Shown here: one piece after another, positions 5,196 to 33,305 of the stretch
How the letters are laid out: the number at the start of each line of letters is the position of its first letter
Numbering within the stretch: the stretch's first letter is position 1
NCBI GenBank assembly: GCA_913058185.1
Contig: CAJXQX010000036.1
Span: 1-37,452 of the forward strand
Source: an uncultured Verrucomicrobiota bacterium
GTDB lineage: Bacteria > Verrucomicrobiota > Verrucomicrobiia > Opitutales > Opitutaceae
Direction: 5' to 3'
Length of the DNA: 37,452 bases
Made by a program: the position numbers and the translations under genes
The notes under the pieces: model-generated
Told to the model about the DNA's origin: nothing
What the model saw: only the letters and a program-made list of their open reading frames with translations
The model's database searches: none

Positions 5196-5255
5196 GAAAA
5201 TATGGGGCTAAAACGACGGGTATCTAATTAGTGTATACGAAAACAATGAGGCAGA

Positions 5256-8931: not shown

Positions 8932-10071
8932 CTAGTCACCGATCATCAGTATCTCTTCGACCGCAGGTTTAGGCTTTTGGGACCGATCCCAGAGTAGCGG
9001 GTAATTCGTTCGATCGGGGATGGGGTAGCCGTTCTTCCAAGACATATCGTCGGTGACTCCCCAGAGCGTCACTCGGTCGATTTTCTCGCGACGATCGTAA
9101 AACAGGGAGAACAACTCGACGTAGCGCTGGGTAAACTGTGCTTCGATGTCGGACGGTAACCCGGCGGTATAGGGATCGAGATGGATCTTAAATTCCTCCA
9201 GCTGAAACTGTGGGTGCATCATGCCCTGCCCGATGATCTGCCCTTCCTTGGTCAGTGGAAGAACATCAACATCGAGCTCCGTGATCATGACTTTGACTCC
9301 CAGCGCCGAGAAGGCATCGATCGCCGCGGTGATGTATTCGTTCTTCGGGTAATGAAGCCCCCAGTGGCCTTGCATTCCAACCCCGTCAATTCGGATGCCT
9401 TCGCGCTGCAGCATCTTCACCAGTCGCACGATTCCGTCACGCTTCTCTGGGCGCCATGCGTTGAAATCATTGTAATACAATTCGGTATCGGGTGCATACT
9501 TCTCGGCAAAGCGAAAGGCATTCTTCACCAACGCATCGCCCCCACCGACCCCATTGACCCAGGTCGTGGGACGGTAGGAGCCGTCATTATCGATCACTTC
9601 ATTGACGACATCCCAAGCATGGACGCGGCCAGCATATCGACCCGCCACTTTTTCGATGTGAGCTCGCATGACTTCGATCTGTTCGACCGGAGAGTTCGAC
9701 TCACCCTGTTCGTTTTGGAAAAACCACTCCGGAGTTTGGTTATGCCAAACCAAGGTGTGCCCCACGATGAACATGCCATTAGCCTCACCAAACTCTACAA
9801 ACTGATCACCCGCTGCAAAATCGTAAACCCCGGGCTCCGGGCAGAGTGGACCCGCCTTCAGTTCATTCTCCACCGTAATGGTATTAAACTGCTCCAAAAC
9901 GATCCGCTGCGTCGCCCCGTCTCGGCCTGAGTCGATCGCGTTATTTGTAGCAGAGCCCACCAAAAATGCCCCGTCAAAGGCCGACTTAAAGGTGGCCGAA
10001 GGCGCGTCACTCGCCTGCAGCGCGACTGCGCTGCCAACTCCAAGCGCGAAGAGTATGTTGAAAGAGTTCAT
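8932..10071 (-). CDS. GH10 endo-1,4-beta-xylanase
   Basis: A retaining endo-xylanase that cuts beta-1,4-xylan; exported. The 379 residues contain a signal peptide (1-20) and a single GH10 TIM barrel. Diagnostic motifs are FNTITVENELK (62-72), GHTLVWHNQTPEW (104-116), acid/base Glu158 in WDVVNE, ND near 201, VGMQGHWG (231-238), nucleophile Glu265 in ITELDV and LWGVTDDMSW near the C terminus. All glycone-subsite residues expected for a working GH10 are present and no carbohydrate-binding module is attached. It is the only classical glycoside hydrolase in the window and links the locus to xylan or a xylose-containing sulfated glycan. Its upstream region carries a hairpin and two repeats. Confidence 0.95.
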   Translation of the reverse strand: MNSFNILFALGVGSAVALQASDAPSATFKSAFDGAFLVGSATNNAIDSGRDGATQRIVLEQFNTITVENELKAGPLCPEPGVYDFAAGDQFVEFGEANGMFIVGHTLVWHNQTPEWFFQNEQGESNSPVEQIEVMRAHIEKVAGRYAGRVHAWDVVNEVIDNDGSYRPTTWVNGVGGGDALVKNAFRFAEKYAPDTELYYNDFNAWRPEKRDGIVRLVKMLQREGIRIDGVGMQGHWGLHYPKNEYITAAIDAFSALGVKVMITELDVDVLPLTKEGQIIGQGMMHPQFQLEEFKIHLDPYTAGLPSDIEAQFTQRYVELFSLFYDRREKIDRVTLWGVTDDMSWKNGYPIPDRTNYPLLWDRSQKPKPAVEEILMIGD

Positions 10072-10453: not shown

Positions 10454-11338
10454 CTACTCGCTCGGCACCAATCGCTCCGACTCTGCCGGAATCGTCAGGG
10501 TTGGCAGCCCCTCCAGAAACCCCAATTCGTTTAAAAACTCATCCGCCGCGATCAGCGTCAGGTCCTTCCAAGGTTGTTGATTGAAAAATCCATGACCCGC
10601 TCCGGGCGCAAGCTGATGATCGATGGAGTCAACGTCCATTGACTCGAGTTTTTGCTGCACGGCGTTCCAGCCTGGACTCCATTTTTCATCTTCGGTGCCA
10701 AAGAACACGATCACGGGTGGCATGTCGGCGTCGAGGTGTTGCAGCATGTCCACCTCTGGGTCGCTTTGGTCGGCGGAAATAAACGCCGGATTGAACAACA
10801 CGTAAGCCGCCACCGAGGTGTCGACGTTAGTCGGATCACCGGGATCGTTCAGTCCCGGATTGTGCGTAGCCAACATGCTCACATGTCCCCCGGCCGATCC
10901 ACCACCCGCAATCAATCGATCAGGATCCAAACCCAACACTTCCGCATTCGATTTCATCCATCGTATCGCACTCTTGGCATCCGTAATACACACCCGCTTC
11001 CGCGAGCCTTCACCGGTGTATTCTTTGCTTTTGACTAAAGTATAATTTGAGGTCGCCGCGACCAAACCCCGACTGGCGAAATATTGACACTGGTATTGAA
11101 ACGCCGCCAACGAACCATTGCCCCAAGCTCCACCGTGAAAGAGAATAATCCCGGGATATTTGCGCTTTGCCGGATCCCATCCCTCCGGGAAATAGATCTC
11201 CATCTCGAGCGGTTTCCCATCGATCTCTTTGTAGACAAAACGCTTCCCCGGAACCGGACTCGTTTCGATCTCATTATCTTCGCCCATCAGCGGCGACAGA
11301 AAAGACAAGAGTATCAATGGGGCTAGAAATCGTCGCAT
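10454..11338 (-). CDS. Secreted alpha/beta hydrolase, BD-FAE-like esterase
   Basis: This 294-residue protein has a signal peptide (1-19) and the hormone-sensitive-lipase/BD-FAE type fold. The oxyanion motif is HGGAWGNGS (68-76), the nucleophile Ser148 lies in GGGSAGGH, the acid is Asp217 (FFGTEDEKW) and the catalytic His249 lies in GAGHGFFN. Proteins of this group in glycan loci remove feruloyl or acetyl esters from xylan side chains, and the neighbouring GH10 xylanase supports such a role; the exact ester is inference. The segment ITDAKSAIRWMKSNAEVLGLDP is the usual helix before the elbow. Sulfatase 1 lies 48 bases upstream on the same strand, so the two may be co-transcribed. Confidence 0.85.
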   Translation of the reverse strand: MRRFLAPLILLSFLSPLMGEDNEIETSPVPGKRFVYKEIDGKPLEMEIYFPEGWDPAKRKYPGIILFHGGAWGNGSLAAFQYQCQYFASRGLVAATSNYTLVKSKEYTGEGSRKRVCITDAKSAIRWMKSNAEVLGLDPDRLIAGGGSAGGHVSMLATHNPGLNDPGDPTNVDTSVAAYVLFNPAFISADQSDPEVDMLQHLDADMPPVIVFFGTEDEKWSPGWNAVQQKLESMDVDSIDHQLAPGAGHGFFNQQPWKDLTLIAADEFLNELGFLEGLPTLTIPAESERLVPSE

Positions 11339-11386: not shown

Positions 11387-12775
11387 TCACCAGACATTCA
11401 CCCCGGCATCAAATTCCAGCATGCGCCGGCGCAGTTTTTCAGCGAGCACGGGATACTTCTCGATCACGTTGTGTTTCTCTCCGATGTCGTCGCGCAGGTT
11501 GTAGAGCTTGGGCACTTCGACTTCGGGCCGAGCTCTGGGATGATCGCCCCACGTTTGATACTTCCACCCACCAACCCGGATACCATTGATGGTTCCGGAG
11601 TTAGCGGCGTAGTAGAAAATCTCGTGGCGGGGAGACTGGGCTGAACGGCCCTCAATTAAGTCCTTCAGGCTGAAACCATCGTAGATCCGATCCTCGGGTA
11701 GATCAGCGCCAACCCAATGCGCGATGGTCGGTAGCAGATCCAGAGTGGACGCAATCTCATCACTCTCGCCGCCCGCCGCGATCGTGCCGGGAGCCCACAG
11801 CACCGCCGGCACGCGCAGGCCGCCTTCGAAGGTGGTGAACTTACCGCCTTTCATCGGACCGGCGGAGCCCTCTGGGATCGGCCCATTGTCCGATAGAAAC
11901 ATCACGAACGTATCTTCCGATAGACCGTGCTCGTGCAGCGCATTCAAGACTTCGCCTACGCTCCAATCGATCTGTTGCACGATATCGCCAAAGATCCCCG
12001 CCTCACTCTTACCCGCATACTCCTCTTCGATGTGATGCGGCTTATGCGGCATGGTGTGCGGCATATAGAGAAAGAACGGCTCCTCCTTGTGCTCCGCGAT
12101 AAACTCAACGGCTTTCTCAGTGTAGCGTCGGGTCAAAGTCTTCTGGTCCACCGGATACTCAATGATCATATTATCTTCCAGCAGCGGGACCCGATTACGC
12201 AGCTCTCGATAATGTTGGAGGTAGCGGGCCCGGTCGCTCTGCATCTGCTCCGGCGTGTATCCCTCGTTGAGTTGCACAACAGGCGAGATATCGAACTCCG
12301 CCGAAATCGACATATCGTTGCTGTAGGGAACGCCATAATAAGAATCGAAACCCTGATTCATAGGCATGAACTGCGCTTGATGCCCCAGGTGCCACTTGCC
12401 CACGATGCCCGTGGCATAGCCCTGCCTCTTCAGCAATTCAGCGATGGTGAGTTCCGCCGGCGGCAGGCCCGTAGTTGAGCGGGGAAACAAGACCCCCGGG
12501 ACGCCCACCCGGACCGGCATGCGGCCCGTGAGTAGGGCAGCCCGCGACGGAGAGCATACCGAGGAAGCCACATAGAAACTCGTCATGCGCAGCCCCTCGC
12601 TTGCCATGCGGTCGATGTGCGGCGTGGCAATGATCTCGGAACCAAAACAACTCAAGTCGCCCCACCCCTGATCATCGGTCATGATGATGATGAAATTTTT
12701 AGGGGCCGCAAACGCACCGTTGCCGAAACAAATCACTCCAAGGAACAGAATGATTCTTAGTAATTCTCGTGTCAT
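11387..12775 (-). CDS. Sulfatase 1 (type I, FGly-dependent)
   Basis: Hydrolyses sulfate esters; periplasmic or secreted. ATG 12775 is preferred over 12835 because it begins a signal peptide (RIILFLGVICFGNGAFA). The product is 462 residues. Metal-binding Asp34-Asp35 (MTDDQGWGD), the formylglycine site Cys74 in VCSPSRAALLTG (canonical CxPSR), GKWHLGH and the second metal site SDNG (FLSDNGPIPEGS) are all present. The C-terminal subdomain keeps the LYNLRDDIGEKHNV block typical of sulfatases acting on sugars. Similarity is to the arylsulfatase A / GALNS side of the family. A good promoter-like pair lies 90 bases upstream. The frameshifted esterase gene follows on the same strand upstream. Confidence 0.93.
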   Translation of the reverse strand: MTRELLRIILFLGVICFGNGAFAAPKNFIIIMTDDQGWGDLSCFGSEIIATPHIDRMASEGLRMTSFYVASSVCSPSRAALLTGRMPVRVGVPGVLFPRSTTGLPPAELTIAELLKRQGYATGIVGKWHLGHQAQFMPMNQGFDSYYGVPYSNDMSISAEFDISPVVQLNEGYTPEQMQSDRARYLQHYRELRNRVPLLEDNMIIEYPVDQKTLTRRYTEKAVEFIAEHKEEPFFLYMPHTMPHKPHHIEEEYAGKSEAGIFGDIVQQIDWSVGEVLNALHEHGLSEDTFVMFLSDNGPIPEGSAGPMKGGKFTTFEGGLRVPAVLWAPGTIAAGGESDEIASTLDLLPTIAHWVGADLPEDRIYDGFSLKDLIEGRSAQSPRHEIFYYAANSGTINGIRVGGWKYQTWGDHPRARPEVEVPKLYNLRDDIGEKHNVIEKYPVLAEKLRRRMLEFDAGVNVW

Positions 12776-12864
12776 AAGTTTCAAATCATCCACTAAACTG
12801 CCGAATTTACTACCCAACAAAGTCGCAAAGAGCATTTGGCAGGGTCTTTACTTAACGGGAGTAA

Positions 12865-16193: not shown

Positions 16194-19100
16194 ATGAAAC
16201 TCGTGTTCTTGTCCTCCCCAGCAACTAAACTATCCGCCGGTATTATCTGCGCTTTGGCGATTGGCAGTTTCGTCTTTGGCCAGCCAACGACCACCGCCGC
16301 TGATCAAACTAAAAATACCTTTCACGGCGGAATTCAGTCCAAGAATGCCACCGAGGTTCCTCATAAGTTGAAGGACGCCAAAAGCCTGCCTTCGGGCAAA
16401 ACCCCACCGCCGCAGGATCCAGAACTCGAGGAGTATGGGATCTATTTCGATCAGGCACCGACCGCGATGATCACGCATCCGGTGCCCACGGAATTACCCC
16501 TTCAGCTCAACGCCGGAGACCGCATCGCGTTTATCGGGAACACCCTACTGGATCGCGCTCAAATTTTTGGCCACTTCGAAGCCAACCTCCAACTCGCCCA
16601 TCCGGGGGAAAAACTAGTGATTCGTAATCTCGCTTGGTCAGCCGATGAGGTCGACCTGCAGCCGCGCCCGGCAAACTTCGCAACCGTCGAGCAACACCTC
16701 ACCCGTGAGAACGTGGACGTCATTTTCGCGGCGTTCGGCTACAACGAATCTTTTGACGGACTGGAGGCGGTCGAGTCCTTCAAGGCCCGTCTCGCCCGCT
16801 TCTTGCTGGATCTGAAATCGAAGGCCTACAACGGCACCGATGCACCTCAGATTGTGCTGATCTCCCCCATCGCCAACGAAAACACCGCCAAGGTTCCGGC
16901 GGCAGATTTAAACAACGAACGCCTCGCGGCCTACACCGCCGCCATGGCGGAAGTCGCTGAACGCCTTCAGGTCGGCTTCGCCAATGTCTTCGCCTCCACT
17001 CAGGTTGCTATGGCCGACGAAACCTCCGACCTCACCATCAATGGGGCCCACCTGACCGAGATCGGTTACAAAGTATTCGCCGATGCCTTGTTCCATGCGG
17101 TGTTCGATTCCCCGGTCCCCACACCCAACGAGGAATTGCGCGCGACCATCATCGACAAGAATACGCAGTATTTCCGCCGCTACCGCCCGCTCAACACCTA
17201 CTATTACACCGGAGCCCGCAACAAGAGTTACGGCTATTTGGATTTCCTCCCTGCCATGCGGAATCTGGAAATCATGACCGCAAATCGCGATGAGCGGATT
17301 TGGGCCATCGCCCAAGGTCAGACCTTCGCTGCTCAACCGATTGATGATTCGAATGTGCCGGAGTTGGATGAGATAGAAGAATCGCGCGGCGCCAACGAAT
17401 GGCTCTCTCCCGCTGACGAGATGGCGGCCTTCCGGGTCGATCCCCGATTCGAAGTCAATCTGTTCGCGAGTGAAGAAGAGTTCCCCGAAATCGCCTGCCC
17501 TATCACCATGCGCTGGGATGCGAAGGGCCGCCTTTGGGTGAGTTGCTCCGTCACTTATCCTCATGTCTATCCTGGTCAAAAACCGCGCGATAAGATCGTC
17601 ATCCTAGAGGACACCGATAACGATGGGCGCGCCGACAAATCTACGATCTGGGCCGACGATATTAGCATCCCGTTATCCTATGAACTCTATAAGGACGGCA
17701 TCATCGTTTCGGAAGAGCCTCACCTCAGTTACATCTACGATAGTGATGGCGACGGAAAGGCCGACTCTCGCGAGTATCTCTACACCGGATTTGGTTGCGA
17801 AGACTCGCACCACGCCTTGCACGACTTCGTTTGGGCTCCCGATGGCGATCTCCTTTTCCGCGAATCAATCTTCCACAACTCGCAGGTCGAAACACCCTAC
17901 GGTCCGATCCGCGCCAAGAACTCCGCGTGGTTCAAATACTCCCCGCTCAATCAGTCTCTCGTCACCTTCGGCAGCTACCCCAATACCAACCCATGGGGAG
18001 TGACTTACTCGGACTGGGGACATCACGTCGCGAGCCACCCGGTTTTCGCCAGTGCGTTTCACGCCACCAACCCAGCGTTCCCCGAGCAACATCCCAAGGC
18101 TTCCGGCATTCCGGCCTACTCCGGTGTCTGCGGGCATGAATTTGTCGACTTCCCCATGTGGCCTGACGCGCTCCAAGGCGGATTCATAAAAGTGCGCTAC
18201 AAACCAACCAACCGGGTCGAAATTCACAAGTGGATCGAAAACGATGATCACTTCGCAGAGGAGTATGTCTCGGACCTCATCTTCTCCGAAAACCTGAGTT
18301 TTATCCCCGTCGACATAAAATTCGGCCCGCGGGGCGCGATCTATATCTGCGATTGGTATAACCCCGTCAAAGGTCACGCCCAATACTCGCTCCGAGATCC
18401 CCGCCGTGATCGCAAAAGCGGCCGCATATGGCGCGTCGTGCCTAAGGGTGCCCAACTGCAAGACGCCCCCTCGATCGCCGACACCGAACTCGATCAACTC
18501 CTCGATAATCTGAAGCGCCGCGAATACCGTTACCGCTACTGGACCAAACGCGAGTTGCGGGACACCCATGATTCCGCCGACGTAGCTACCGCTCTCGACT
18601 CTTGGGTCGCAAAACTCGATTCCTCCGACGAGCGATTCCGCCATCATCAAGTCGAAGCTATGTGGGTCTACCGCAGCATCGGCGTCAGCCGCCCCGCTCT
18701 CCTGCGTGAACTGCTGACCTGCGAGAATCACCACGCCCGAGCCGCCGCGACGCGACAACTCCGCTACACCATCGGCGCGACCGGCATGCCCGCGATGCCT
18801 AACCTCGCCGACAATGGTCTCACCCTGGCGCAAGCATTGAGTCTGCTGGCAAAACGCACCAACGATGTGAACGGAATCGTGCGCCTCGAAGCAGCCAACA
18901 CCGCGAGTTACTTGGGCACAGCCGATGCCCTCAAATCACTTTTGGACATATTCCAATACCCCATGCAGGAGCACTTGAAGTTCGCTGTCCGGTGCGCGAT
19001 CGGATCAGAGGCCCTCGCGCCCTTCTGGCAAGGAGACGATTCGGCATTGGATGATTCTGAGCGGAAGACTCTCAGCGATTTTTACGAAAACTGGGACCAA

Positions 19101-19544
19101 GAGAACACCAAGGCTGATGCCCTCCTCGCCGGCGGTGCGGTGGCCTCCGGATTCGATCGTCAAGAGGATCTGTTTAGCATCGAGATCTCTACCATCCCCG
19201 AACGCATGTTATTCGACGTGGAAAAGTTCACGGTGCGAGCCGGACAACCCGTGCGACTGATTTTCACTAATCCAGATGCGACGCAACACAACCTCGTGAT
19301 CATCGAACCGGGTCGCAATGAGGCCATCGGAGTCGCCGCCAACGAAATGGCCAAGGACCCAAGTGGCGTGGAGAAGGATTTCATCCCCACTGTGCCCGGA
19401 ATCCTACACTACACCAAACTCCTCGGCCCGGATGGGCTGGAGATCCTACGCTTCAACGCACCCGAGAAGCCCGGGGTGTATCCTTACATCTGCACCTTCC
19501 CGGGCCACTGGTTTATGATGAAGGGCGAGATGATCGTCGAATAG
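16194..19544 (+). CDS. SGNH-like / PVC beta-propeller / azurin-like cupredoxin fusion
   Basis: ATG 16194 (1116 residues) is chosen over TTG 16071 because it gives a signal peptide. Domains in order: SGNH-like (about 95-310), where block I reads FIGNTLLDR instead of GDS (115-117 is GNT) while the late His286 in NGAHLTEIGY stays; a PVC-type 'membrane-bound dehydrogenase' beta-propeller (about 405-750) with two Ca-type loops DTDNDGRAD and DSDGDGKAD and the closing RDRKSGRIWRV; helical repeats (about 760-970); and a C-terminal type 1 copper domain (about 990-1116). Copper ligands are His1032 (QHNLV), Cys1100, His1105 and Met1109 in CTFPGHWFMMKG, the azurin spelling and spacing. Planctomycete/verrucomicrobial relatives usually end in a CxxCH cytochrome; no CxxCH occurs here. 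It probably oxidises a sugar or derivative and passes electrons to copper (inference). Confidence 0.85.
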   Translation: MKLVFLSSPATKLSAGIICALAIGSFVFGQPTTTAADQTKNTFHGGIQSKNATEVPHKLKDAKSLPSGKTPPPQDPELEEYGIYFDQAPTAMITHPVPTELPLQLNAGDRIAFIGNTLLDRAQIFGHFEANLQLAHPGEKLVIRNLAWSADEVDLQPRPANFATVEQHLTRENVDVIFAAFGYNESFDGLEAVESFKARLARFLLDLKSKAYNGTDAPQIVLISPIANENTAKVPAADLNNERLAAYTAAMAEVAERLQVGFANVFASTQVAMADETSDLTINGAHLTEIGYKVFADALFHAVFDSPVPTPNEELRATIIDKNTQYFRRYRPLNTYYYTGARNKSYGYLDFLPAMRNLEIMTANRDERIWAIAQGQTFAAQPIDDSNVPELDEIEESRGANEWLSPADEMAAFRVDPRFEVNLFASEEEFPEIACPITMRWDAKGRLWVSCSVTYPHVYPGQKPRDKIVILEDTDNDGRADKSTIWADDISIPLSYELYKDGIIVSEEPHLSYIYDSDGDGKADSREYLYTGFGCEDSHHALHDFVWAPDGDLLFRESIFHNSQVETPYGPIRAKNSAWFKYSPLNQSLVTFGSYPNTNPWGVTYSDWGHHVASHPVFASAFHATNPAFPEQHPKASGIPAYSGVCGHEFVDFPMWPDALQGGFIKVRYKPTNRVEIHKWIENDDHFAEEYVSDLIFSENLSFIPVDIKFGPRGAIYICDWYNPVKGHAQYSLRDPRRDRKSGRIWRVVPKGAQLQDAPSIADTELDQLLDNLKRREYRYRYWTKRELRDTHDSADVATALDSWVAKLDSSDERFRHHQVEAMWVYRSIGVSRPALLRELLTCENHHARAAATRQLRYTIGATGMPAMPNLADNGLTLAQALSLLAKRTNDVNGIVRLEAANTASYLGTADALKSLLDIFQYPMQEHLKFAVRCAIGSEALAPFWQGDDSALDDSERKTLSDFYENWDQENTKADALLAGGAVASGFDRQEDLFSIEISTIPERMLFDVEKFTVRAGQPVRLIFTNPDATQHNLVIIEPGRNEAIGVAANEMAKDPSGVEKDFIPTVPGILHYTKLLGPDGLEILRFNAPEKPGVYPYICTFPGHWFMMKGEMIVE

Positions 19545-23767: not shown

Positions 23768-25114
23768 TCATGGTAAGAGTGGTTCCCCAAATTCGGTTTC
23801 AACATCCGGAAGCCGGGGGTAACGATCTAATACCGCCTGAAGTTCTTCGCGCCGATCGGATTCAACTCCCGCTGCGGATACCGGTGACTCTTCCATGAAG
23901 TCTGATCTCACTTCAAAGTAGTCCCCGTTCTGATACAGTTTAAACTGACCATCATAGACATACTTATCACGATGAACTCTCGCTTGTCCCCACCGAGCGT
24001 CGTAATAGCCAAACACCCACTCGCGCTCCGGTCCGGACTTGCCCACTAATGTCGGGAGAAAACTGACCCCCTCGAGTTGCAGCTCCTCTCGTTTGGACTG
24101 AGGCAACGTGACGATGTCGGCCAAAGTTTGATGGAAGTCGGTAAAATCCACTAACTGTTGGCTCACCTGCCCGACGGGTGTCTGTCCCTTCCAGTAGGCA
24201 ATGAGCGGCACGTGAATTCCCGCATCAATCGTATTGGCTTTGCCCCCCGGCACCGTGCGATGAGGCAACTCCGAGACAATTGACCGATCCGTGCCATTAT
24301 CACCCGTGAAGAGGATAAGCGTATTCTCCAACAGCCCCTCTTCCTCCAGTTTGTCATGGATGCGTCCGACCAATTTATCGCAATACGCCATCATATCTCC
24401 AAATGCCTCCTGCCGACTCAACTCCTGAGTCTCACTATCGGGCGTGGGTAAAAATGGGCTATGCACCAAAACCATCGGGTAATACACGAAGAACAGCTCG
24501 TCCTTTTTTCGTTCAATGAAATCGCAGATGTAATCCGTGAAGTGGTCCGGTCCATATTTGCCGTCCATCGCTTCGTCGATGACCTCACCATTTTGCTCGA
24601 TATACGGATCCCAAAATCGCTCGCCGTAGGACTTTCCCTTGGTGACCTGCCAGAGGCTGTATTCGTCGAACCCGGCATCGTGCAGCCGGGTGGTATCATT
24701 CGATCGGTCAAACTTACCGTCACCATGCGAAATTCCGTTCAACTGCCATTTACCGGCAATCATCGTCGCATAGCCTGAGTCGCGCATGAGATTACCAAAT
24801 GTCGGATACTTTGGATTGAGGTAACCGAACTCCTCATAGGTAAAACAGTTGTAGCGACCGGTCATAATTTGCACCCGCGATGACGTGCAGACCGGCGTGG
24901 AGTAGCAGTTATCAAAACGAACTCCGTCCGCCGCCAAACGATCCAATCGCGGCGTCTCGTAGGACTGACTCCCGTAAGTGCTCAGGCATTCAAAACCCAT
25001 ATCATCGGCCATAATGAGGATGACGTTGGGACGGTCGACCGCCGCTGCCGCGACGGCACTGAATCCCCCGAAACAAACGGCTGCAATAAAACGAAAGAGG
25101 GGTGACGATAACAT
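23768..25114 (-). CDS. Sulfatase 3 (type I) with CTSSR active-site motif
   Basis: Exported sulfatase, 448 residues, signal peptide 1-25. The fold landmarks are intact: Asp37-Asp38 (IMADDMGFECL), GKWQL, FTGDNGTD (second metal site) and YPMVLVHSP. The formylglycine motif, however, is Cys76-Thr-Ser-Ser-Arg: the proline of CxPxR is serine (codon TCA). The closest relative in this window, sulfatase 7 (31211-32542), keeps CTPSR in an otherwise very similar block (STPLCTPSRVNLMSG versus STPVCTSSRVQIMTG). Either maturation tolerates the change, or a different maturase is used, or the enzyme is inactive. It heads a minus-strand run with the FG-GAP gene and sulfatase 2. Divergent from sulfatase 4 across an AT-rich 208-bp region. 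Confidence 0.9.
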   Translation of the reverse strand: MLSSPLFRFIAAVCFGGFSAVAAAAVDRPNVILIMADDMGFECLSTYGSQSYETPRLDRLAADGVRFDNCYSTPVCTSSRVQIMTGRYNCFTYEEFGYLNPKYPTFGNLMRDSGYATMIAGKWQLNGISHGDGKFDRSNDTTRLHDAGFDEYSLWQVTKGKSYGERFWDPYIEQNGEVIDEAMDGKYGPDHFTDYICDFIERKKDELFFVYYPMVLVHSPFLPTPDSETQELSRQEAFGDMMAYCDKLVGRIHDKLEEEGLLENTLILFTGDNGTDRSIVSELPHRTVPGGKANTIDAGIHVPLIAYWKGQTPVGQVSQQLVDFTDFHQTLADIVTLPQSKREELQLEGVSFLPTLVGKSGPEREWVFGYYDARWGQARVHRDKYVYDGQFKLYQNGDYFEVRSDFMEESPVSAAGVESDRREELQAVLDRYPRLPDVETEFGEPLLP

Positions 25115-25322
25115 AGAGAGAATTGGGCGAAATTTTACGTCTAAATACGATGCATATTAAAGCTTATCTAAATTAATGTCATCAAGCACTACCTGACGAC
25201 CGCCCGCGCTGATTCGGGATACGGGGCAGTAGCAGATCTCGATTGATGGAAAGAAGGAAGATCGCTAAGTTTTCAAATTGTTCTCCCCTCCTCACTGCCC
25301 CGCCATCACGTTTATCGAGACC

Positions 25323-27074
25323 ATGCGAAACCTCCTCTGTTTGCTCGCCCTGCACATTGCCGCCAGCGCGAGCATTTTTGCCGCTACTCAACCCAACGTC
25401 ATCGTCATCCTCACCGACGATCAGGGCTGGGGTGATTTGAGCGTTAGCGGGAACCCCAACCTCTCCACGCCGAACATCGATACCCTCGCCCGCGACGGGG
25501 CAACATTCGACAATTTCTATGTCTGCCAGGTGTGTGCGCCTACCCGCGCCGAATTCCTCACCGGCCGCTACTATCCTCGCACCGGCGTGAGTGGAGTCAG
25601 TTCCGGACAAGGTCGGCTTAATCCCGACGAGACCACCATCGCCGACGTGTTTAAGGCCAACGGCTACACCACCGGCGCATTCGGCAAATGGCACAACGGC
25701 ACCCAGTCCCCCTATCACCCCAACGATCGTGGCTTCGACGAATACTACGGATTCACCTCCGGACACTGGGGCCACTACTTCAGCCCTCCGCTCGATCACA
25801 ATGGCCGCAAGGTTCGGGGCAACGGCTTCGTGGTCGACGACTTCACCGACCACGCGCTGGAATTCATCGAAGACAATCGCGACAATCCGTTCTTCTGCTA
25901 CCTGCCCTACAACACGCCGCATTCCCCGATGATGATTAGCGACGAGTTCTACGACAAATTCAGAGACGTCGACCCTGCCATGATGAACCGCGAACCAAAG
26001 CGCGAGGACGTGATGATGACCCGCGCCGCCCTCGCGATGTGCGAGAACATTGACTGGAATGTCGGCCGTATCCTCCAGCGGCTCGAAGAACTGAACCTGC
26101 AGAACGATACCATCGTCATCTATTTCTCTGACAATGGACCCAACTCCATTCGTTGGAACGGCGGCATGAAAGGCCGCAAAGGCTCCATCGATGAAGGCGG
26201 CCTGCGTTCGCCTTTCTTCATCCGCTGGCCGGACCAAATCGCCGCTGGCCTCCGCGTGCCTCAAGTCACCGCAGCAATCGACCTGCTGCCCACGCTGGCC
26301 GAACTCGCCGGCGCAGAGGTTGCCACGGCCAAGCCGATCGATGGTCAAAGTTTCCAGTCCCTCCTCGCTGGTCAGTCCAGTGCGTGGAACTACCGCCCCA
26401 TATTCAGCATCAAAAACAAGCAGGTCAGTGTGCGTAATCAACGCTACCGGCTCGATGCTACCGGCAAGCTCTTCGACATCACCGCCGACCGGGGCCAACA
26501 CCACGATGTCGCGGCGGAACACCCGGAGGTCCACGCGCGATTGACCAAGCTCGCCACTCGGCACAACGCGGCGATGCAACAGGATTTCGCCGCCTATCGC
26601 GATCGCCCGTTCACCGTCGGTTATGCCCCCGCGACCACCCTGCCCGCTCGGGACGGCATTCCTCACGGCACGATCATTCGCAGCTCCAAGGCCCCGAACA
26701 ACTCCTTCTTCAAAAACTGGACGAGCGAAGACGACGCAATCACCTGGAGCATCGATGTCGGCGAAGCCGGTGAATACGAGGCCACCGTGCATTACACCTG
26801 CGCCGAGGAAAACCTCGGCACCACCATCCAACTCGCCATGGAGCAAGGCGACAAAACCACCGCGCCCGTCACAATCGCGTTCAACCCGCCGCTCTACGAC
26901 AAGTCGATGGAACGCGTCGCCAATTCTCACTACTTTGTGAAGGATTTCCAGGCCCTTGATTTGGGCTCACTCCACCTTGAAAAAGGACGCGGCCAACTCC
27001 GACTCACCGCGCCCAATATCATTGGCCAATTGGCCATCGACGTGCACTCAGTCGAGCTGGTGAGAAAACCCTAA
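25323..27074 (+). CDS. Sulfatase 4 (type I) with C-terminal beta-sandwich domain
   Basis: Exported sulfatase, 583 residues from ATG 25323, which begins a signal peptide (RNLLCLLALHIAASASIFA); the frame is open from TTG 25278. Asp32-Asp33 (LTDDQGWGD), formylglycine Cys71 in VCAPTRAEFLTG (CxPTR, canonical), GKWHNG and FSDNGPNSIRWNGGMKG are all present. After the sulfatase fold (to about 430) comes an extra domain of about 150 residues (about 431-583) rich in beta strands (ITWSIDVGEAGEYEATVHY...), of the carbohydrate-binding type often attached to planctomycete/verrucomicrobial sulfatases. The gene has a higher GC third position than its neighbours, enough that the antisense strand is open for 582 codons. 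Confidence 0.92.
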   Translation: MRNLLCLLALHIAASASIFAATQPNVIVILTDDQGWGDLSVSGNPNLSTPNIDTLARDGATFDNFYVCQVCAPTRAEFLTGRYYPRTGVSGVSSGQGRLNPDETTIADVFKANGYTTGAFGKWHNGTQSPYHPNDRGFDEYYGFTSGHWGHYFSPPLDHNGRKVRGNGFVVDDFTDHALEFIEDNRDNPFFCYLPYNTPHSPMMISDEFYDKFRDVDPAMMNREPKREDVMMTRAALAMCENIDWNVGRILQRLEELNLQNDTIVIYFSDNGPNSIRWNGGMKGRKGSIDEGGLRSPFFIRWPDQIAAGLRVPQVTAAIDLLPTLAELAGAEVATAKPIDGQSFQSLLAGQSSAWNYRPIFSIKNKQVSVRNQRYRLDATGKLFDITADRGQHHDVAAEHPEVHARLTKLATRHNAAMQQDFAAYRDRPFTVGYAPATTLPARDGIPHGTIIRSSKAPNNSFFKNWTSEDDAITWSIDVGEAGEYEATVHYTCAEENLGTTIQLAMEQGDKTTAPVTIAFNPPLYDKSMERVANSHYFVKDFQALDLGSLHLEKGRGQLRLTAPNIIGQLAIDVHSVELVRKP

Positions 27075-27973: not shown

Positions 27974-29341
27974 ATGCACGCATTCAAACAATTCCGGACC
28001 AGATTTTTCCTGTTAATGCTGTCTGCATTTGGCCTGTCGGCCCTCTCGATGGGGGCTGAGACCCGCCCCAACATAATTTTCATCATGGCCGATGATCTCG
28101 GCTACGGAGATCTCGGTTCCTACGGCCAAACGGTGATTCAAACGCCGCATCTCGATCACATGGCCGCGGAAGGCATCCGCTTCACCGATTTCTACGCCGG
28201 ATCTCCGGTTTGCGCACCTTCGCGGAGTGTGCTCATGACGGGACAGCACACCGGGCATACCACAGTCCGAGGAAACTTCGGAAAGTTCGGCGTGCTCGGA
28301 TTGGCCGGAAACAAGGGACGTGTCCCCCTATTCGCGGAAGATGTGACGATCGCTGAGGTTTTGAAATCAGCGGGCTATGCCACCGGAATCACCGGCAAGT
28401 GGGGTTTAGGCGAACCCGCCACCACCGGAGTTCCGAACGACCAAGGTTTCGACGAATGGTTCGGCTACCTCAATCAGCGGCGAGCGCACAGTTATTTCCC
28501 CGAGTATATTTGGAAGAACCGGGACCGCTTCGATCTCCCGGGAAACGCAAACGGTGACCAAAAAACTTATACTCATGATCTCTTCACCGAATTTGCGCTA
28601 GACTTCGTCGAACGCCACCAAGCCGGCCCGTTCTTTCTCTACCTCCCGTATACCGTGCCTCACTCCAAGTATGAGATTCCGGATACCGCGCCCTACTCCG
28701 ATAAACCGTGGACGGACGACGAGAAAGTGCACGCGGCTATGATCACCCGACTCGATCGTGACATCGGACAATTATTCGCCCTTTTAAAATCACTGGAAAT
28801 CGATGAAAAAACCATCGTGTTTTTCTGCTCCGACAACGGAGCCGCCGAACGTTGGGAAGGTCGATTTGACAGCTCCGGTCCATTGCGTGGTCGTAAACGA
28901 GACGTCTACGAGGGCGGCATTCGCTCACCGATGATCGTGCGCTGGCCCGGCCAGATTGCCTCTGGTTCAACCAATGACACCCCGTGGTATTTGGCGGATG
29001 TTTTGCCCACCCTTGCTGGCGTCGCGCAAACTTCAGTTCCAGAATCCATCGACGGCGTAAATGTCATGCCGGTAATCCGTGGCGAAGTGACCGAGCTCGG
29101 TGATCGATTCCTGTATTGGGAGTTCTTTGAAAATGGTTTCCAGCAAGCCGTGCGCTGGGGCGGCTGGAAGGCTGTTCGTCCCCAGCCGGGTGAACCCTTG
29201 GAAATCTATCACCTCTCCCGTGATCTCGGAGAAACCACGAATATTGCTCCCAGCTCCCCCGCAATCGTGCGGACTATTGAGGACTACTTGGCGACTGCCC
29301 GAACGACTTCCAAGAATTGGCCGATTGAATCACTCGACTGA
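27974..29341 (+). CDS. Sulfatase 5 (type I)
   Basis: Exported sulfatase, 455 residues, signal peptide to about 28 (LSALSMGAE). Asp40-Asp41 in IMADDLGYGDLGSYG, formylglycine Cys80 in VCAPSRSVLMTG (canonical CxPSR), GKWGLGEP, then RRAHSYFPEYIW and CSDNGAAERWEG as the second metal block. The GLGEP in place of GLHLG and the NQRRAHSYFP insertion mark it as a different subfamily from sulfatases 1, 3 and 7; similar proteins are annotated as arylsulfatases acting on sulfated marine glycans. The C terminus has YHLSRDLGETTNIA. It converges with sulfatase 6, with 27 bases between their stops. Confidence 0.92.
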   Translation: MHAFKQFRTRFFLLMLSAFGLSALSMGAETRPNIIFIMADDLGYGDLGSYGQTVIQTPHLDHMAAEGIRFTDFYAGSPVCAPSRSVLMTGQHTGHTTVRGNFGKFGVLGLAGNKGRVPLFAEDVTIAEVLKSAGYATGITGKWGLGEPATTGVPNDQGFDEWFGYLNQRRAHSYFPEYIWKNRDRFDLPGNANGDQKTYTHDLFTEFALDFVERHQAGPFFLYLPYTVPHSKYEIPDTAPYSDKPWTDDEKVHAAMITRLDRDIGQLFALLKSLEIDEKTIVFFCSDNGAAERWEGRFDSSGPLRGRKRDVYEGGIRSPMIVRWPGQIASGSTNDTPWYLADVLPTLAGVAQTSVPESIDGVNVMPVIRGEVTELGDRFLYWEFFENGFQQAVRWGGWKAVRPQPGEPLEIYHLSRDLGETTNIAPSSPAIVRTIEDYLATARTTSKNWPIESLD

Positions 29342-29368: not shown

Positions 29369-31087
29369 TTAAAGCACATTCATGTTAAGATGCTTCTCGG
29401 GGCCATTGTGGTCCTTCAGAAACGCTTCAATCTTCGCGGTGATGGCGGGGTATTGCGGTGCGACATCCTTCGCTTCCGCGAACATTTCGACCTTGGGGCC
29501 ATAGAGCATCAGCGGAGAACCATCGCTAGGAACGACCGCCTTAAAGTCACCATAGCGCACGAAGTGTTTGTAGTTCGGATCGTCGGGAATCGCCTTTGCG
29601 AGTCGTTTCACGGTTTTGGCGTGCGCGGGGTCGTCGATCAGATTGGTCCATTCCTGCGGATCAGTCTTGAGATTGTAGAGCTCTTGCGAGCCGTCAAAAT
29701 AACGAGTATAGCGCCAATTCCACACCCGAACGGTATGGGTCCCTCGGCCGACGGTTGAGATCGCGCCTTTCTTCCAATCCGCAGTGTCTCCCGCCAAGAG
29801 CTTCACCATGGAACTGCCATCTAAATCCGGACGCTGCTCCAATCCGAGCATTTCAATAACAGTAGGATAAACATCCAATAATGAGACGGGGGCTCGAACG
29901 GGTTTGCTGGCGTTGAACTTGATCGACGCATCGTTGGTCGCCGGCGCGATGATCAACGGCACGCGAGTCGAACGTTCCCAGGGCGTGAATTTCCCCCAGT
30001 GCTCTTTTTCACCCAACTGCCACCCGTGGTCGGACCAGAGCACGATCATGGTATTGTCGGCATGCTCAGAAGCCTCCAACGCATCGAGAACCTTGCCGAG
30101 CTGTGCATCCACAAAAGAAATGCAGGCGAGATAGGCGCTGACCGCGTTGCGCCACTGGCCATTTTCTACCGTCGTGTCGTGTCGACCACTGGTGAGCGCG
30201 TAGCGGCCTAAGTCTTGAGCCGTGCGCGAAAGATCATCTAAATCGTTAGCCAATACTTCCGGTAATACGACCGACTCGGGCGGATACATATCGTGATATT
30301 TTTTAGGCGCCCACAGCGGTTGGTGGGGCCGATAAAAGCCGACCGCCAACATGAAGGGTTGGTTGTAAGATTCGCCGAGCTTTTCCACCGCCCAATCCGC
30401 ACTTTGGGTATCGGTCCACTCCGACTCTGGTCGATCGATCACGCCCCAATCAAAGGAGTCGATGGTTGAGGAATTGGGCTTTCGATCACGCGGCATTTGA
30501 TTGAGCGGCATGGTGATACCGAGACGCGGAATCTCGTGTCGCACATAGGGTTCCGAATCCGCCAGTTCCTCCGCTGTGATGGTTTTCTCATCATCGAGGA
30601 TCGGCCGCCATTTATTGTAGTCCGGACCATACTCATCAAAATACGACTGACTCTTCCCGTGGATAAGTTTGCCCGTGCCCATCGTGTAGTAGCCCTGCGC
30701 CGCCAAGTCCTCGGGCAACACCGAGGCATCTGGATTCGTCTGCTCCAGCTTCTGCCCATTGCCGTAAACTCCGGTGTGCATCGGCAACAGACCCGTCCAA
30801 TTGGAAGCGCGTGAGCCGCTGCAAGCGGGCACCACACAATGCGCATTGGTGAACAGCATCCCGCGTTCGGCCAACCGATCGATATTTGGCGTCTGCACCT
30901 GTGGGTGGCCTTGTAGCGCGCCCACCCAATCGTTCAGATCATCGATCGTGATGTAGAGAATGTTGGTTTTCGTCGGCCCATCGCCCATCGGTTTTGCCGC
31001 CGAAAGAGACGGCTGAGCAAGTAGCAATAAGACGGCAGTTAGAAGAGGCGCAATGCATGCGACGGTAAAGCGAGGGGGGCGCGACAT
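29369..31087 (-). CDS. Sulfatase 6 (iduronate-2-sulfatase-like) with CSGSR motif
   Basis: The largest plain sulfatase here, 572 residues, signal peptide 1-31. ITIDDLNDW (metal Asp49-Asp50), GTGKLIHG, FYRPHQPLWAPKKY and WSDHGWQLGEKEHWGK are hallmarks of the iduronate-2-sulfatase/choline-sulfatase side of family S1. The formylglycine motif reads Cys89-Ser-Gly-Ser-Arg: glycine replaces the proline of CxPxR, and the following RASNWTG differs from the usual R.ALLTG. All other active-site blocks are intact. Some planctomycete relatives may share this spelling, so it could be a subfamily trait rather than a lesion. The C terminus is extended by about 70 residues after LYNLKTDPQEWTNL. Convergent with sulfatase 5, divergent from sulfatase 7. 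Confidence 0.9.
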   Translation of the reverse strand: MSRPPRFTVACIAPLLTAVLLLLAQPSLSAAKPMGDGPTKTNILYITIDDLNDWVGALQGHPQVQTPNIDRLAERGMLFTNAHCVVPACSGSRASNWTGLLPMHTGVYGNGQKLEQTNPDASVLPEDLAAQGYYTMGTGKLIHGKSQSYFDEYGPDYNKWRPILDDEKTITAEELADSEPYVRHEIPRLGITMPLNQMPRDRKPNSSTIDSFDWGVIDRPESEWTDTQSADWAVEKLGESYNQPFMLAVGFYRPHQPLWAPKKYHDMYPPESVVLPEVLANDLDDLSRTAQDLGRYALTSGRHDTTVENGQWRNAVSAYLACISFVDAQLGKVLDALEASEHADNTMIVLWSDHGWQLGEKEHWGKFTPWERSTRVPLIIAPATNDASIKFNASKPVRAPVSLLDVYPTVIEMLGLEQRPDLDGSSMVKLLAGDTADWKKGAISTVGRGTHTVRVWNWRYTRYFDGSQELYNLKTDPQEWTNLIDDPAHAKTVKRLAKAIPDDPNYKHFVRYGDFKAVVPSDGSPLMLYGPKVEMFAEAKDVAPQYPAITAKIEAFLKDHNGPEKHLNMNVL

Positions 31088-31210
31088 ATCAATAGGAAAA
31101 CTGGGTCACTATTCGCAGAAATCAACCTTCCCGTTTCTTGCTATTTCCCCATCGTGTAAGGACCACGCGTGTCGCTCAATGCGGTGCGTAGTCAATTGAT
31201 CGTCCACCCC

Positions 31211-32542
31211 ATGAAATCACTGATAACCTTCCTCAGTCTTCTGACCCTCGCTTCAGCCGCCGAGAAACCGGTAAACGTGTTACTGATCATGGCCGACGAT
31301 ATCGGTTTTGAATGCTTCAGCAGTTACGGCAGCGAGGAATACTCAACCCCACGACTCGATGCCCTCGCGGCTGCGGGTATCCGATTCGAGAACTGCCACT
31401 CCACGCCGCTGTGCACTCCCAGTCGCGTCAATCTCATGTCCGGCAAGTCCAACGTTTTTAACTATCAGGACTTTGGTTTGTATCCCAACGGCGAACCCAC
31501 CTTCGCGAACCATTTCAAAGAATCCGGCTACGCCACTGCGGCCGCGGGCAAATGGCAGCTCAAAACCGAGGACGGCGGAACGACACCACAAGAAGCCGGC
31601 TTCGATTCCTACTGCCTATGGAATACCCCCATGACCAGTCGAGCGCGTTATTGGGATCCTTCGCTCGAAAGTGATGGAACGTTGCTCGATCTTCCCGAGG
31701 GAGCTTACGGCCCTGATGTCTGCACGGACTTCCTCGCCGACTTCATCGAGTCATGCGCCGAAACCGACACTCCGTTTCTCGCCTACTATCCGATGATTCT
31801 GGTGCACAACCCGTTTCCTGTCGCCCCAAACAGCGCGGACATGAATGAAACCGACGACAAAAAGAATTTCATCGATATGGTGAACTACATGGATGCGCTC
31901 GTTGGACGTCTCGTGGATACGCTCGAAGCCAATGGCCTGCGCGATAATACCCTCATCATATTCACCGGCGACAATGGCACGAACGCTGATCTTGTATCCG
32001 AGTTTGAAGGGCAACCGCTGCGCGGTGGTAAAGGCTACACCTACGATCACGGCACCCACGTGCCCCTGGTCGCCAACTGGCCGAACCACATTCCCGCCGG
32101 ACAGATCAACCGCGACCTGATCGCGTTTTCCGATTTCTTCCCGACCATGGTGGAGGCTACGGGACTACCTCCGAAAAAAATCACCGACAGCGATGGCACA
32201 AGTTTCTGGCCTCAGTGTGTGGGTGAAGCCGGTTCCCCGCGGGAGTGGATTTACGGTTACTACTTCCCTCGTCCTTACGCCGAGGGTTACGACGACAAGT
32301 ATCGGCACTGGGAAGTGCGTTATGCGCGGGATCACCGCTTCAAGCTTTACGATAGTGGCGATCTATATGACACCCAGTTAGACGTGCTGGAAACCACCCG
32401 ACTCAATCCCCACCACCTCGACCACGAAGCTCAAGCCGCGCGCAAAAAACTCCAAGCCGTGCTCGACGCCCACCCTCAGCAGGGTGCCATGGTCGACTAC
32501 TCGCGGGTCAACGGAGTCCTCCCGTCGAACACCAAACTTTAA
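31211..32542 (+). CDS. Sulfatase 7 (type I)
   Basis: Exported sulfatase, 443 residues from ATG 31211, which starts a short signal peptide (KSLITFLSLLTLASA); the frame is open from GTG 31169. Asp29-Asp30 in IMADDIGFECFSSYG, Cys68 in LCTPSRVNLMSG (canonical CxPSR), GKWQLK, MILVHNPF and FTGDNGTNAD are visible. It is a paralogue of sulfatase 3, sharing IGFEC.SSYGS, the order of blocks and a similar length, but it keeps the active-site proline. The first DUF1080 gene follows 13 bases downstream on the same strand, so the two form an operon. Divergent from sulfatase 6 across 123 bases. Confidence 0.92.
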   Translation: MKSLITFLSLLTLASAAEKPVNVLLIMADDIGFECFSSYGSEEYSTPRLDALAAAGIRFENCHSTPLCTPSRVNLMSGKSNVFNYQDFGLYPNGEPTFANHFKESGYATAAAGKWQLKTEDGGTTPQEAGFDSYCLWNTPMTSRARYWDPSLESDGTLLDLPEGAYGPDVCTDFLADFIESCAETDTPFLAYYPMILVHNPFPVAPNSADMNETDDKKNFIDMVNYMDALVGRLVDTLEANGLRDNTLIIFTGDNGTNADLVSEFEGQPLRGGKGYTYDHGTHVPLVANWPNHIPAGQINRDLIAFSDFFPTMVEATGLPPKKITDSDGTSFWPQCVGEAGSPREWIYGYYFPRPYAEGYDDKYRHWEVRYARDHRFKLYDSGDLYDTQLDVLETTRLNPHHLDHEAQAARKKLQAVLDAHPQQGAMVDYSRVNGVLPSNTKL

Positions 32543-32555
32543 CCATTCCCCTATC

Positions 32556-33305
32556 ATGAAATCCCCTATCCTCCTCATTCTGGCGTGCCTTTCCATCCCT
32601 CTCTTCGCGGGTGAACTCGATCCCGGACCCAATCAACAAAAATGGTTCAAGCACTACGAAAAACAGAAGAATCTGCCTGTCCCAGGCGAGATGCTGATCA
32701 ACAAAAAAGATGAGCCTAACCTCACCGGAAAAGGATTCATCGATCTGTTTAATGGTAAGAATCTGGACGACTGGGAAGCCATCGGCGGCACCTGCAAATT
32801 CACGGTGCAAGGAGACTCCATTCGCGGGGTAACCGTGCCTGGATCAGAGAGCACCTACCTTTATACCAAGAAGGCTGACTTCGCGGATTTCATTTTTACG
32901 TGTGATCTGAAATGGGAGGTGGAAGGAAACACGGGCGTAATGTTCCGCGCGACTCGCACGGAGGGTAAAACCGGCCCCACTGCTTACGGTCCACAAATGG
33001 AGATGGAACCCTTTTCGCACGGACGCGGATGGTCTGGTGGCATCTACGGACAAGCGGCTGGTGGCTGGTTCTACCCGGTTTGGCTGGCGGAACACGCCGA
33101 GACGCGTAAAGCCCAAATCCAGCATGGTTGGAACCGTATGACCATCGAAGCCCGTGGCGCCAAGGTGCGCACCTGGCTCAACGGTGTGCCCGTCTCCAAC
33201 TGGAGAACCGACACCTTTCTCTCCGGCGCATTTGGCCTTCAAGTCCACAAGGGTGAAGCAGGGACAATCTATTGGCGGAACCTGAAGGTGAAGTCGCTGG
33301 ATTGA
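32556..33305 (+). CDS. DUF1080 protein (3-keto-disaccharide hydrolase domain) 1
   Basis: ATG 32556 begins a signal peptide (KSPILLILACLSIPLFAGE); 249 residues. A spacer of about 40 residues precedes the concanavalin-like DUF1080 fold (about 55-249): FIDLFNGKNLDDWEAIGG, FTCDLKWEVEGNTGVMFR, and a C-terminal AFGLQVHKGEAGTIYWRNLKVK. In the family these beta-sandwich proteins are secreted glycan-processing enzymes; some hydrolyse 3-keto-glycosides produced by sugar 3-dehydrogenases, so pairing with an oxidoreductase is expected, and the cupredoxin fusion at 16194 would be a candidate partner (inference). It is 13 bases downstream of sulfatase 7 with no terminator between. Confidence 0.88.
   Translation: MKSPILLILACLSIPLFAGELDPGPNQQKWFKHYEKQKNLPVPGEMLINKKDEPNLTGKGFIDLFNGKNLDDWEAIGGTCKFTVQGDSIRGVTVPGSESTYLYTKKADFADFIFTCDLKWEVEGNTGVMFRATRTEGKTGPTAYGPQMEMEPFSHGRGWSGGIYGQAAGGWFYPVWLAEHAETRKAQIQHGWNRMTIEARGAKVRTWLNGVPVSNWRTDTFLSGAFGLQVHKGEAGTIYWRNLKVKSLD

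Follow-up and report, generated by a model that had tools for sequence, protein, structure and literature searches.

A cupredoxin-terminated propeller protein from an uncultured Verrucomicrobiota bacterium: a possible glycoside dehydrogenase with apparently exchangeable electron outlets

What does a beta-propeller protein do with a copper domain at its end, when its family is named after a haem-binding motif? The question is raised by a contig (CAJXQX010000036.1) of an uncultured bacterium of the Opitutaceae, phylum Verrucomicrobiota. In the 37,452-nt stretch analysed here (the window), a plus-strand gene, 16194-19544, runs from an ATG at 16194 to a stop at 19544 and encodes a protein of 1116 amino acids (aa). 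An earlier reading of the DNA letters (the sequence-only reading) gave these coordinates correctly, and described a dehydrogenase-like PVC propeller with a copper site and without a CxxCH haem motif, which is confirmed as a whole. Its interpretation holds in part: propeller and copper domain do stand together without haem in this protein, but copper has not simply replaced haem. The best reading of all the data is a periplasmic glycoside dehydrogenase that probably makes 3-keto sugars and passes electrons via copper to the respiratory chain. To this reading, that is, a secreted multidomain oxidoreductase oxidising glycosides, most likely to the 3-keto form, with electrons leaving through copper, we give a rough probability of 0.42.

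The protein consists of an SGNH-like domain, a propeller, HEAT-like helices and a cupredoxin (Table 1), and its start suggests that it is probably secreted. An AlphaFold2 model built from a 56-sequence alignment has a mean predicted local distance difference test score (pLDDT) of 90.0 and a predicted template modelling score (pTM) of 0.86. The propeller is recognised by Pfam as DUF7133 (PF23500; 199.5 bits against a cut-off of 27, residues 405-616 and a second stretch) and by NCBIfam as TIGR02604 (Piru_Ver_Nterm; 190.8 against 122.2 bits), which supports the sequence-only reading. The HEAT_2 match (18.8 bits) is below the Pfam cut-off. The SGNH domain, which had been missed before, matches PF13472 (GDSL/SGNH, residues 139-294; 36.8 against 32.9 bits), and in the model it superposes on 7br2 with Z 20.2 and a root-mean-square deviation (rmsd) of 2.9 over 255 aligned residues. 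It is probably not a hydrolase, because the catalytic Ser of the GDS block and Asp of DxxH correspond to Thr117 and Asn283; among homologues, Ser is found in 4 of 54 letters and Asp in 7 of 55.

The evidence for copper is in the tail. Residues 1032, 1100, 1105 and 1109, within CTFPGHWFMMKG, are His, Cys, His and Met, the full type 1 ligand set that had been claimed, and this set is kept in 55 of the 56 aligned fused homologues (in the exception, L089, the first His is Arg). Among solved structures, the tail matches Roseiflexus auracyanin 6kol (E 4.5e-17) and auracyanin A 2aan (1.7e-13), the best azurin being 1gr7 (5.5e-6), and the modelled tail superposes on 2aan with Z 19.6 and rmsd 1.2 over 119 residues. 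Fold and ligands of a type 1 cupredoxin are both present, as known from sequence and model, and the resemblance of the predicted copper site is far beyond chance. A copper domain at the C terminus had been foreseen correctly, but as a true azurin; the azurin equivalog TIGR02695 reaches only 28.2 against 105.1 bits and Pfam Cupredoxin_1 24.2 against 27 bits, and the domain is better described as auracyanin-like. It shares the cupredoxin fold and the His-Cys-His-Met ligands with auracyanin and azurin, but differs from both in being the fused tail of a large protein.

Haem, in contrast, was not found. Neither the protein nor the longer open frame has a CxxCH motif, and none is seen in window frames of at least 100 aa or in three frames of the 700 bp downstream of the gene, in agreement with the earlier claim. 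Of the families named in that claim for scanning, TIGR02604 exceeds its cut-off, whereas the cupredoxin families stay below theirs and TIGR02603 is absent from the NCBIfam families reported at E up to 10. The protein has in common with the TIGR02604/PF23500 family ("PVC-type heme-binding CxxCH protein", for Planctomycetes-Verrucomicrobia-Chlamydiae) the propeller, the HEAT-like helices next to it and a C-terminal redox domain, but it has neither CxxCH nor the TIGR02603 domain, and ends in a cupredoxin. Note that this product name stems from the propeller model and would label haem-less members as well; "heme-binding CxxCH" is unfitting for those that carry only copper.

The next step is to establish how common the architecture is. 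A scan of 84,980 species, one genome each, used a pattern that included the copper motif and is therefore biased towards copper. At least 502 of at least 590 matched stretches encode a relative (tblastn, 1e-3), perhaps with stand-alone cupredoxins among them, and the best 80 were examined. Propeller and cupredoxin share one open reading frame (ORF) at 68 of these 80 loci (37 in Verrucomicrobiota, 22 in Planctomycetota, 8 in Bacteroidota and 1 in Hydrogenedentota); the architecture is not unique. The sequence-only reading had named many described relatives of this kind as a reason to abandon it: they exist in the databases, but no description of the fusion was found in the literature searched, most subscription journals being outside its reach. 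A survey of azurins lists azurin genes in Verrucomicrobia, and the words fusion, multidomain and domain architecture are absent from its main text as far as available (PMC8779525). In the phylum of the window, 46 of 288 genomes have a cupredoxin profile match at 1e-15 or better, and among the matches listed 37, in 17 genomes, sit in open frames of at least 800 aa, counted regardless of propeller content.

Less biased is a search of 57 related genomes, which gave matches with E values of 1e-40 or better in 16. Its 30 loci comprise 6 with copper, 19 with haem and 5 with neither (split, broken or cut), where haem is called by a CxxCH motif behind the propeller; haem family models agree where they were scanned together with copper (L078, L104 and L148). 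In the genome of the window itself, 20 stretches yield 13 other propeller ORFs. CxxCH is present in 12 of them, copper in none, and one lacks both. A weak relative that came to light afterwards as the fourteenth (L151) does combine a propeller (DUF7133, 27.9 against 27 bits) with a cupredoxin. The earlier remark that relatives usually carry haem is true of this genome, but copper-bearing relatives are common in the copper-biased scan.

The 130 propeller ORFs of the fetched loci divide into 50 with copper, 35 with haem, 25 with both and 20 with neither (9 of the latter cut at a contig end), a tally that has the same copper bias and holds duplicates, for example, L059 and L029. L083 was first taken as copper-only and then rejected as such: a haem domain follows in the next frames, behind a frame break at ambiguous bases, which brings the tandem copper-haem ORFs to 26. 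The trees keep L083 coded as copper-only, the frame-break reading being confined to the orthologue clade described below. With this coding, a tree of 104 propellers has 12 changes among the copper, haem and both states. Two side observations belong here: three planctomycete propellers of the TIGR02604 family (L101, L105 and L112) have neither domain in frame, and in L062 (3859-5205) a DUF7133 propeller gene lacking its own redox domain is followed directly by one for a protein of 449 aa, which has a cupredoxin tail and an unassigned propeller-like front (SMP-30-like by reading).

The orthologues form a clade of 28 rows with support 100/100. All 11 Planctomycetota orthologues that are readable to the end carry a copper and then a haem motif in tandem, while all 17 Verrucomicrobiota orthologues have copper only, without a haem motif in the 700 bp that follow. 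Loci cut at a contig end (the planctomycete L095, and L043, L071 and L096) are left out of this count, and L088, whose propeller is the same as that of L044, is counted once. The planctomycete orthologues (L078, L080, L083-L087, L091, L092, L097 and L103) have the same SGNH-like/propeller/HEAT/cupredoxin order at 51-58% identity and differ by the haem domain after the cupredoxin; L097 and L103, in addition, start with a sulfatase domain. Because the readable planctomycete proteins carry both, simple replacement between haem and copper in this lineage is rejected, and the idea of copper instead of cytochrome c falls with it. The Verrucomicrobiota orthologues group together in a single clade (98/96) inside the planctomycete rows (93/88 and 91/89), a placement that suggests a transfer to Verrucomicrobiota followed by loss of haem; the tree favours this history, but the alternative in which Planctomycetota are held together is not rejected by the approximately unbiased test (p-AU 0.055 with 10 rows, 0.078 with 11).

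Elsewhere in the family, the two carriers are exchanged on nearly the same propeller. The haem protein L060 and the copper protein L128 share 88-94% identity in the propeller (columns 401-750), 70% in columns 751-800 and 56-58% in columns 801-900, and from column 901, where the tails differ, identity drops to about one quarter; L063 (haem) shows the same pattern with L137 and L144 (copper). Contig misassembly could fake one of these cases, less easily both. On this comparison haem and copper look like interchangeable electron outlets, which argues that the propeller needs such an outlet and hence would be a redox enzyme. The simplest reading is that it hands electrons to whichever carrier is attached, and an electron route through copper, as first proposed, would be the natural one here. 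In this light, the copper domain is better regarded as one outlet among several, interchangeable or in series, on a propeller protein that is widespread and little characterised.

Which kind of redox enzyme this may be is indicated by the fold. When the whole model was searched, sugar dehydrogenases tied with SMP30 and diisopropyl fluorophosphatase (DFPase) types; the separation appeared with the propeller alone. The best superpositions are then the AA12 structure 6i1q (Z 26.3, rmsd 3.1, 290 aligned), 6jt5 (25.9), soluble glucose dehydrogenase (sGDH) 1qbi (25.6) and 2g8s (24.6). The first 15 rows lie at Z 24.4-26.3 and the SMP30/DFPase types at 21.1 or below, 3 to 5 units lower. Foldseek's own E-value order gives no such separation, luciferin-regenerating enzyme and DFPase being intermixed with 3a9g. 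By superposition, the modelled propeller has the fold of sGDH and AA12 and matches sugar dehydrogenases dependent on pyrroloquinoline quinone (PQQ) best. The fold alone is no proof of catalysis, because the non-enzymatic hedgehog-interacting protein (HHIP) reaches Z 22.0, almost as high as the PQQ-bound dehydrogenase 3das (22.4), both lying between the two groups.

In the active site, His540, Asp537 and Asn599 are invariant in all 56 aligned homologues. We take His540 to be the probable counterpart of the catalytic His of sGDH and AA12, judging by the motif spacing of sGDH. In those enzymes this His is the proposed base, and a PQQ-adjacent Arg/Asx pair is about 94% conserved in AA12 (PMC6881810). 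At the position of the PQQ-contacting Arg, placed by a profile alignment to 2g8s, the protein has Thr598; its relatives have Thr, Pro, Ala or other residues before Asn599, and in the wider propeller set Arg occurs in 5 of 41. According to this alignment, the protein is a PQQ-enzyme fold in which the canonical PQQ contact is lost. It shares with AA12 pyranose dehydrogenases and sGDH the fold and, judged by motif, probably the His and Asn of the active site, but differs by the replaced Arg, the added SGNH and cupredoxin domains and an identity of 11-14%.

These data bear directly on one alternative to the glycoside dehydrogenase, namely, a PQQ-dependent aldose (C1) dehydrogenase like sGDH or AA12 that would oxidise a reducing sugar to the lactone using scavenged PQQ, with copper taking the electrons from reduced PQQ. 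Coprinopsis pyranose dehydrogenase is a precedent for joining a PQQ propeller to an electron-carrying cytochrome domain. The 16 best-scoring superposition entries are all PQQ sugar or glucose dehydrogenases or their kin, and a profile of 41 propellers matches 2g8s, the aldose dehydrogenase of E. coli, at E 3.5e-5 (outranked by two teneurin-like chains in which short matches are repeated); the invariant His540 and Asn599 also fit. However, the Arg of the pair is found in none of the 56 relatives, and at the other places where an Arg might stand the protein has Ile (residue 704; Arg in 30 of 56 relatives) and Val (706). In addition, a profile search finds no PqqD match in the genome of the window, while the same search, as a control, matches PqqD in 3 of 14 named genomes. 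We regard this alternative as unlikely.

For the glycoside dehydrogenase, the probable substrate class is suggested by gene context. Genetic evidence links PF06439 proteins, beside the LacABC dehydrogenase, to the use of lactose, and hydrolysis of 3-keto-lactose has been proposed for them, in the portion of that study available (PMC9007349). Like the present protein in the proposed reading, the lactose 3-dehydrogenase LacABC is a periplasmic dehydrogenase encoded near PF06439 (DUF1080) enzymes, but it is a distinct three-component enzyme, and the likeness is one of gene context only (PMC9007349). Pfam confirms a PF06439 domain fused to a DUF7133 propeller in L153, L154, L155 and L089, the last being the frame of a paralogue cut at a contig end. 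Two fusions have the order PF06439-SGNH-DUF7133, and L155 reads PF06439-SGNH-DUF7133-HEAT-cytochrome c. A PF06439 gene also comes directly after a copper propeller in L156 and, in L157, after a pair of genes for propeller and cupredoxin. In the close pair of verrucomicrobial orthologues L079 and L081, a PF06439-sulfatase fusion gene stands head to head with the copper propeller gene and has another sulfatase-like gene behind it; this single fusion gene (L079:7244-9859, L081:7262-9823) also encodes HEAT repeats. The window's own genome has a compact second copper-propeller locus, as judged from its genes, in L151:1068-7014 (contig C95), where a sulfatase, a PF06439-PA14 protein and the 673-aa propeller-cupredoxin follow in a row on one strand.

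Sulfatases are linked to the orthologues in a similar way. The N-terminal sulfatase domains of L097 and L103 lie in the same chain as the propeller, and L091, which is cut at a contig end, retains part of one. In all, 13 of the 28 orthologue loci have sulfatase matches within or next to them, in three cases inside the main ORF (profile search, many flanks short); a motif search had missed several of these matches. As a separate observation, an 1820-aa frame adjoining the orthologue in L103 (1490-6949) contains, by BLAST matches, roughly three sulfatase-like stretches in tandem within a single chain. A conserved orthologue neighbourhood was sought and not found; families other than sulfatases occur in at most 5 of 29 loci, close pairs aside.

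Proximity was evaluated over the matches listed (150 and 149) in 12 genomes. Of the 149 TIGR02604 matches listed, 9 have a PF06439 match on the same strand within 3 kb (three being fusions; expected 1.82, P 1e-4) and 10 on either strand (expected 3.63, P 0.004). In the window's own genome, it is 4 of 22 on either strand within 3 kb (expected 0.84, P 0.009). As a control over 14 named genomes, TIGR02604 is matched in 5 (1 over the cut-off) and PF06439 in 4 (3 over). Together, the propeller fold, the window's two PF06439 genes and the PF06439-propeller fusions lend indirect support to the sugar oxidation that had been suggested from the sequence, and comparison with relatives suggests that the protein strips electrons from sugars as part of oxidative glycan cutting.

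The proposed mechanism would then be as follows. The sulfatases and glycosidases of the locus would release or expose a glycoside, which the propeller may oxidise, most likely at C3 to the 3-keto glycoside; the neighbouring PF06439 enzymes would then cleave this product. Electrons would leave through the tethered type 1 domain, if it is loaded with copper, to a soluble carrier and then to oxygen, and in the planctomycete orthologues the haem c domain after copper may be the next relay. A candidate for the soluble carrier is the product of a separate azurin-like gene in the same genome (L152, 151 aa; Copper-bind 56.7 against 21.2 bits), which lies beside a gene for a UbiA-type prenyltransferase and one for cytochrome oxidase subunit II, the latter carrying a cytochrome c domain (L152:2113-5707, contig C1). 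It is possibly a copper donor to the oxidase; the gene makes a copper-based carrier available and nothing beyond.

Several points weigh against this mechanism. Because the PQQ-contacting Arg is replaced throughout and no PqqD is found, no oxidation cofactor is identified, and the near-equal score of HHIP has been mentioned above. The genome also holds 47 GFO_IDH_MocA and 4 GMC matches, which could carry out C3 oxidation instead. As to PF06439, the window's genes are about 13 kb from the propeller gene, not adjacent; similar matches are found at only 3 of the 28 other orthologue loci (flanks up to 10 kb, many short); the association is weaker when the distance is cut to 1.5 kb with both strands counted (4 of 149 matches listed, expected 2.2, P 0.18) or, in the own genome, extended to 10 kb (5 of 22, P 0.056); and the 12 genomes were chosen for holding matches. 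Finally, the sole assayed relative found in print, Lac161_ORF7, a Piru_Ver/HEAT/cytochrome c protein, is reported as a beta-galactosidase and not as a dehydrogenase (PMC5342196).

This last point leads to another improbable alternative, in which the propeller is a glycoside hydrolase or lyase acting on the glycan directly, with the copper or haem tail there for sensing, docking or some other reaction. Lac161_ORF7 (AGW45552) resembles the present protein in combining TIGR02604, HEAT and an electron-carrier tail, and differs in having haem where copper is found here, the comparison being by description only (PMC5342196). It released glucose from lactose with a Km of 1.8 mM and a kcat of 13.2 per s (PMC5342196), and it was produced in E. 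coli, a host without PQQ synthesis of its own (PMC6881810). However, the expression host was BL21(DE3)pLysS induced with isopropyl beta-D-thiogalactoside (IPTG), no host LacZ control is seen in the part of the paper available, and its authors remark that the Km resembles that of LacZ; moreover, the printed kcat/Km of 7.3e4 (Table 3) is ten times the approximately 7.3e3 calculated from the printed kcat and Km (PMC5342196). A hydrolase also leaves unexplained why two unlike electron carriers replace each other on the same propeller.

Still less probable is a scaffold that binds glycans without catalysis and whose copper domain is redundant. The loss of the SGNH Ser and, mostly, Asp, and that of the PQQ Arg, would fit a scaffold, as would the fold shared with HHIP, one entry of which is with heparin; HEAT repeats are generally protein-binding. 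On the other hand, the propeller is the most conserved part between L060 and L128, and the copper ligands are nearly always kept. An inward flow of electrons, from the cupredoxin to the propeller active site as in nitrous oxide reductase (a propeller and a cupredoxin) or to an enzyme such as a monooxygenase, is very improbable. Foldseek does list nitrous oxide reductase 1fwx across both domains (E 1.6e-5), but this match is poor (TM 0.13, rmsd 27); moreover, the motif contains one Cys, as type 1 sites do, where a CuA site has two, and the family's neighbours are sulfatases and PF06439.

The window as a whole contains seven sulfatases, a GH10, a BD-FAE esterase, a heparinase II/III-like gene and two PF06439 genes (Table 1). 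An FG-GAP repeat protein (22469-23716, minus strand) lies amid the sulfatase genes. The minus-strand frame 25182-26930 was considered as a gene and is probably not one; it has no Pfam match and overlaps a plus-strand sulfatase. At 3031-7576 (minus strand), genes for a short-chain dehydrogenase, CoA transferase, thiolase and 3-hydroxyacyl-CoA dehydrogenase follow in a row, which we take to be a separate short-chain ketoacid pathway.

Table 1. Positions of the propeller-cupredoxin gene, its parts and neighbouring genes in the window
Feature	Position	Strand	Basis
Whole gene: SGNH-like / DUF7133 propeller / HEAT-like helices / auracyanin-like cupredoxin	16194..19544	+	Pfam, NCBIfam, AlphaFold2
Probable export signal, residues 1-27	16194..16274	+	Predicted helix 10-27 and sequence
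SGNH-like domain, residues ~100-330	16491..17183	+	Pfam, 7br2 superposition, alignment
Propeller DUF7133/TIGR02604, residues ~405-760, sugar-dehydrogenase fold	17406..18473	+	Pfam, NCBIfam, AlphaFold2 superposition
His540, invariant 56/56	17811..17813	+	Alignment; presumed sGDH counterpart by motif spacing
Thr598-Asn599 at the PQQ-contacting Arg-Asn dyad; Asn kept, Arg lost	17985..17990	+	2g8s profile alignment
HEAT-like helical linker, residues ~764-990	18483..19163	+	Pfam below cut-off, AlphaFold2
Cupredoxin domain, auracyanin-like, residues 991-1116	19164..19541	+	Structure-profile matches, superposition
His1032, predicted copper ligand	19287..19289	+	Sequence and alignment
Cys1100, His1105, Met1109, predicted copper ligand loop	19491..19520	+	Sequence
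GH10 glycoside hydrolase	8932..10071	-	Pfam
BD-FAE type esterase	10454..11338	-	Pfam
Sulfatase	11387..12835	-	Pfam
Sulfatase, closest window match to the domain fused in L097 and L103	20901..22397	-	Sequence comparison
Sulfatase	23768..25114	-	Profile match
Sulfatase	25278..27074	+	Profile match
Sulfatase	27974..29341	+	Profile match
Sulfatase	29369..31087	-	Profile match
Sulfatase	31169..32542	+	Profile match
PF06439 3-keto-disaccharide hydrolase, candidate partner enzyme	32484..33305	+	Profile match
Second PF06439 gene, candidate partner enzyme	33449..34120	-	Profile match

The family to which the protein belongs is large. TIGR02604 match stretches number 31 in the own genome, and 12 other genomes have between 19 and 55 each (a few of the proteins account for two stretches); beyond the one reported beta-galactosidase, no assayed member was found in the literature searched (PMC5342196, available in part). 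Published work, as far as available, counts eighteen propeller proteins homologous to Lac161_ORF7 among the putative glycosidases of one planctomycete (PMC5352709), and in freshwater Verrucomicrobia other planctomycete-specific cytochrome genes, with functions stated as unknown, are placed near sulfatases (PMC5615132). A wider proposal, which we hold tentatively and consider somewhat doubtful, is that SGNH-DUF7133 propellers are a large undescribed class of respiratory glycan oxidases without the usual PQQ-binding Arg, making 3-keto glycosides for PF06439 enzymes and using haem c, blue copper, or copper then haem as plug-in outlets. The fusions of PF06439 and sulfatase domains to the propeller point to a specific, testable substrate class. 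If the glycoside dehydrogenase reading is true, sulfated-glycan breakdown in these phyla would have a respiratory oxidative arm; if the wider class exists, the PVC phyla and Bacteroidota would gain an oxidative route through sulfated glycans that is wired straight to respiration.

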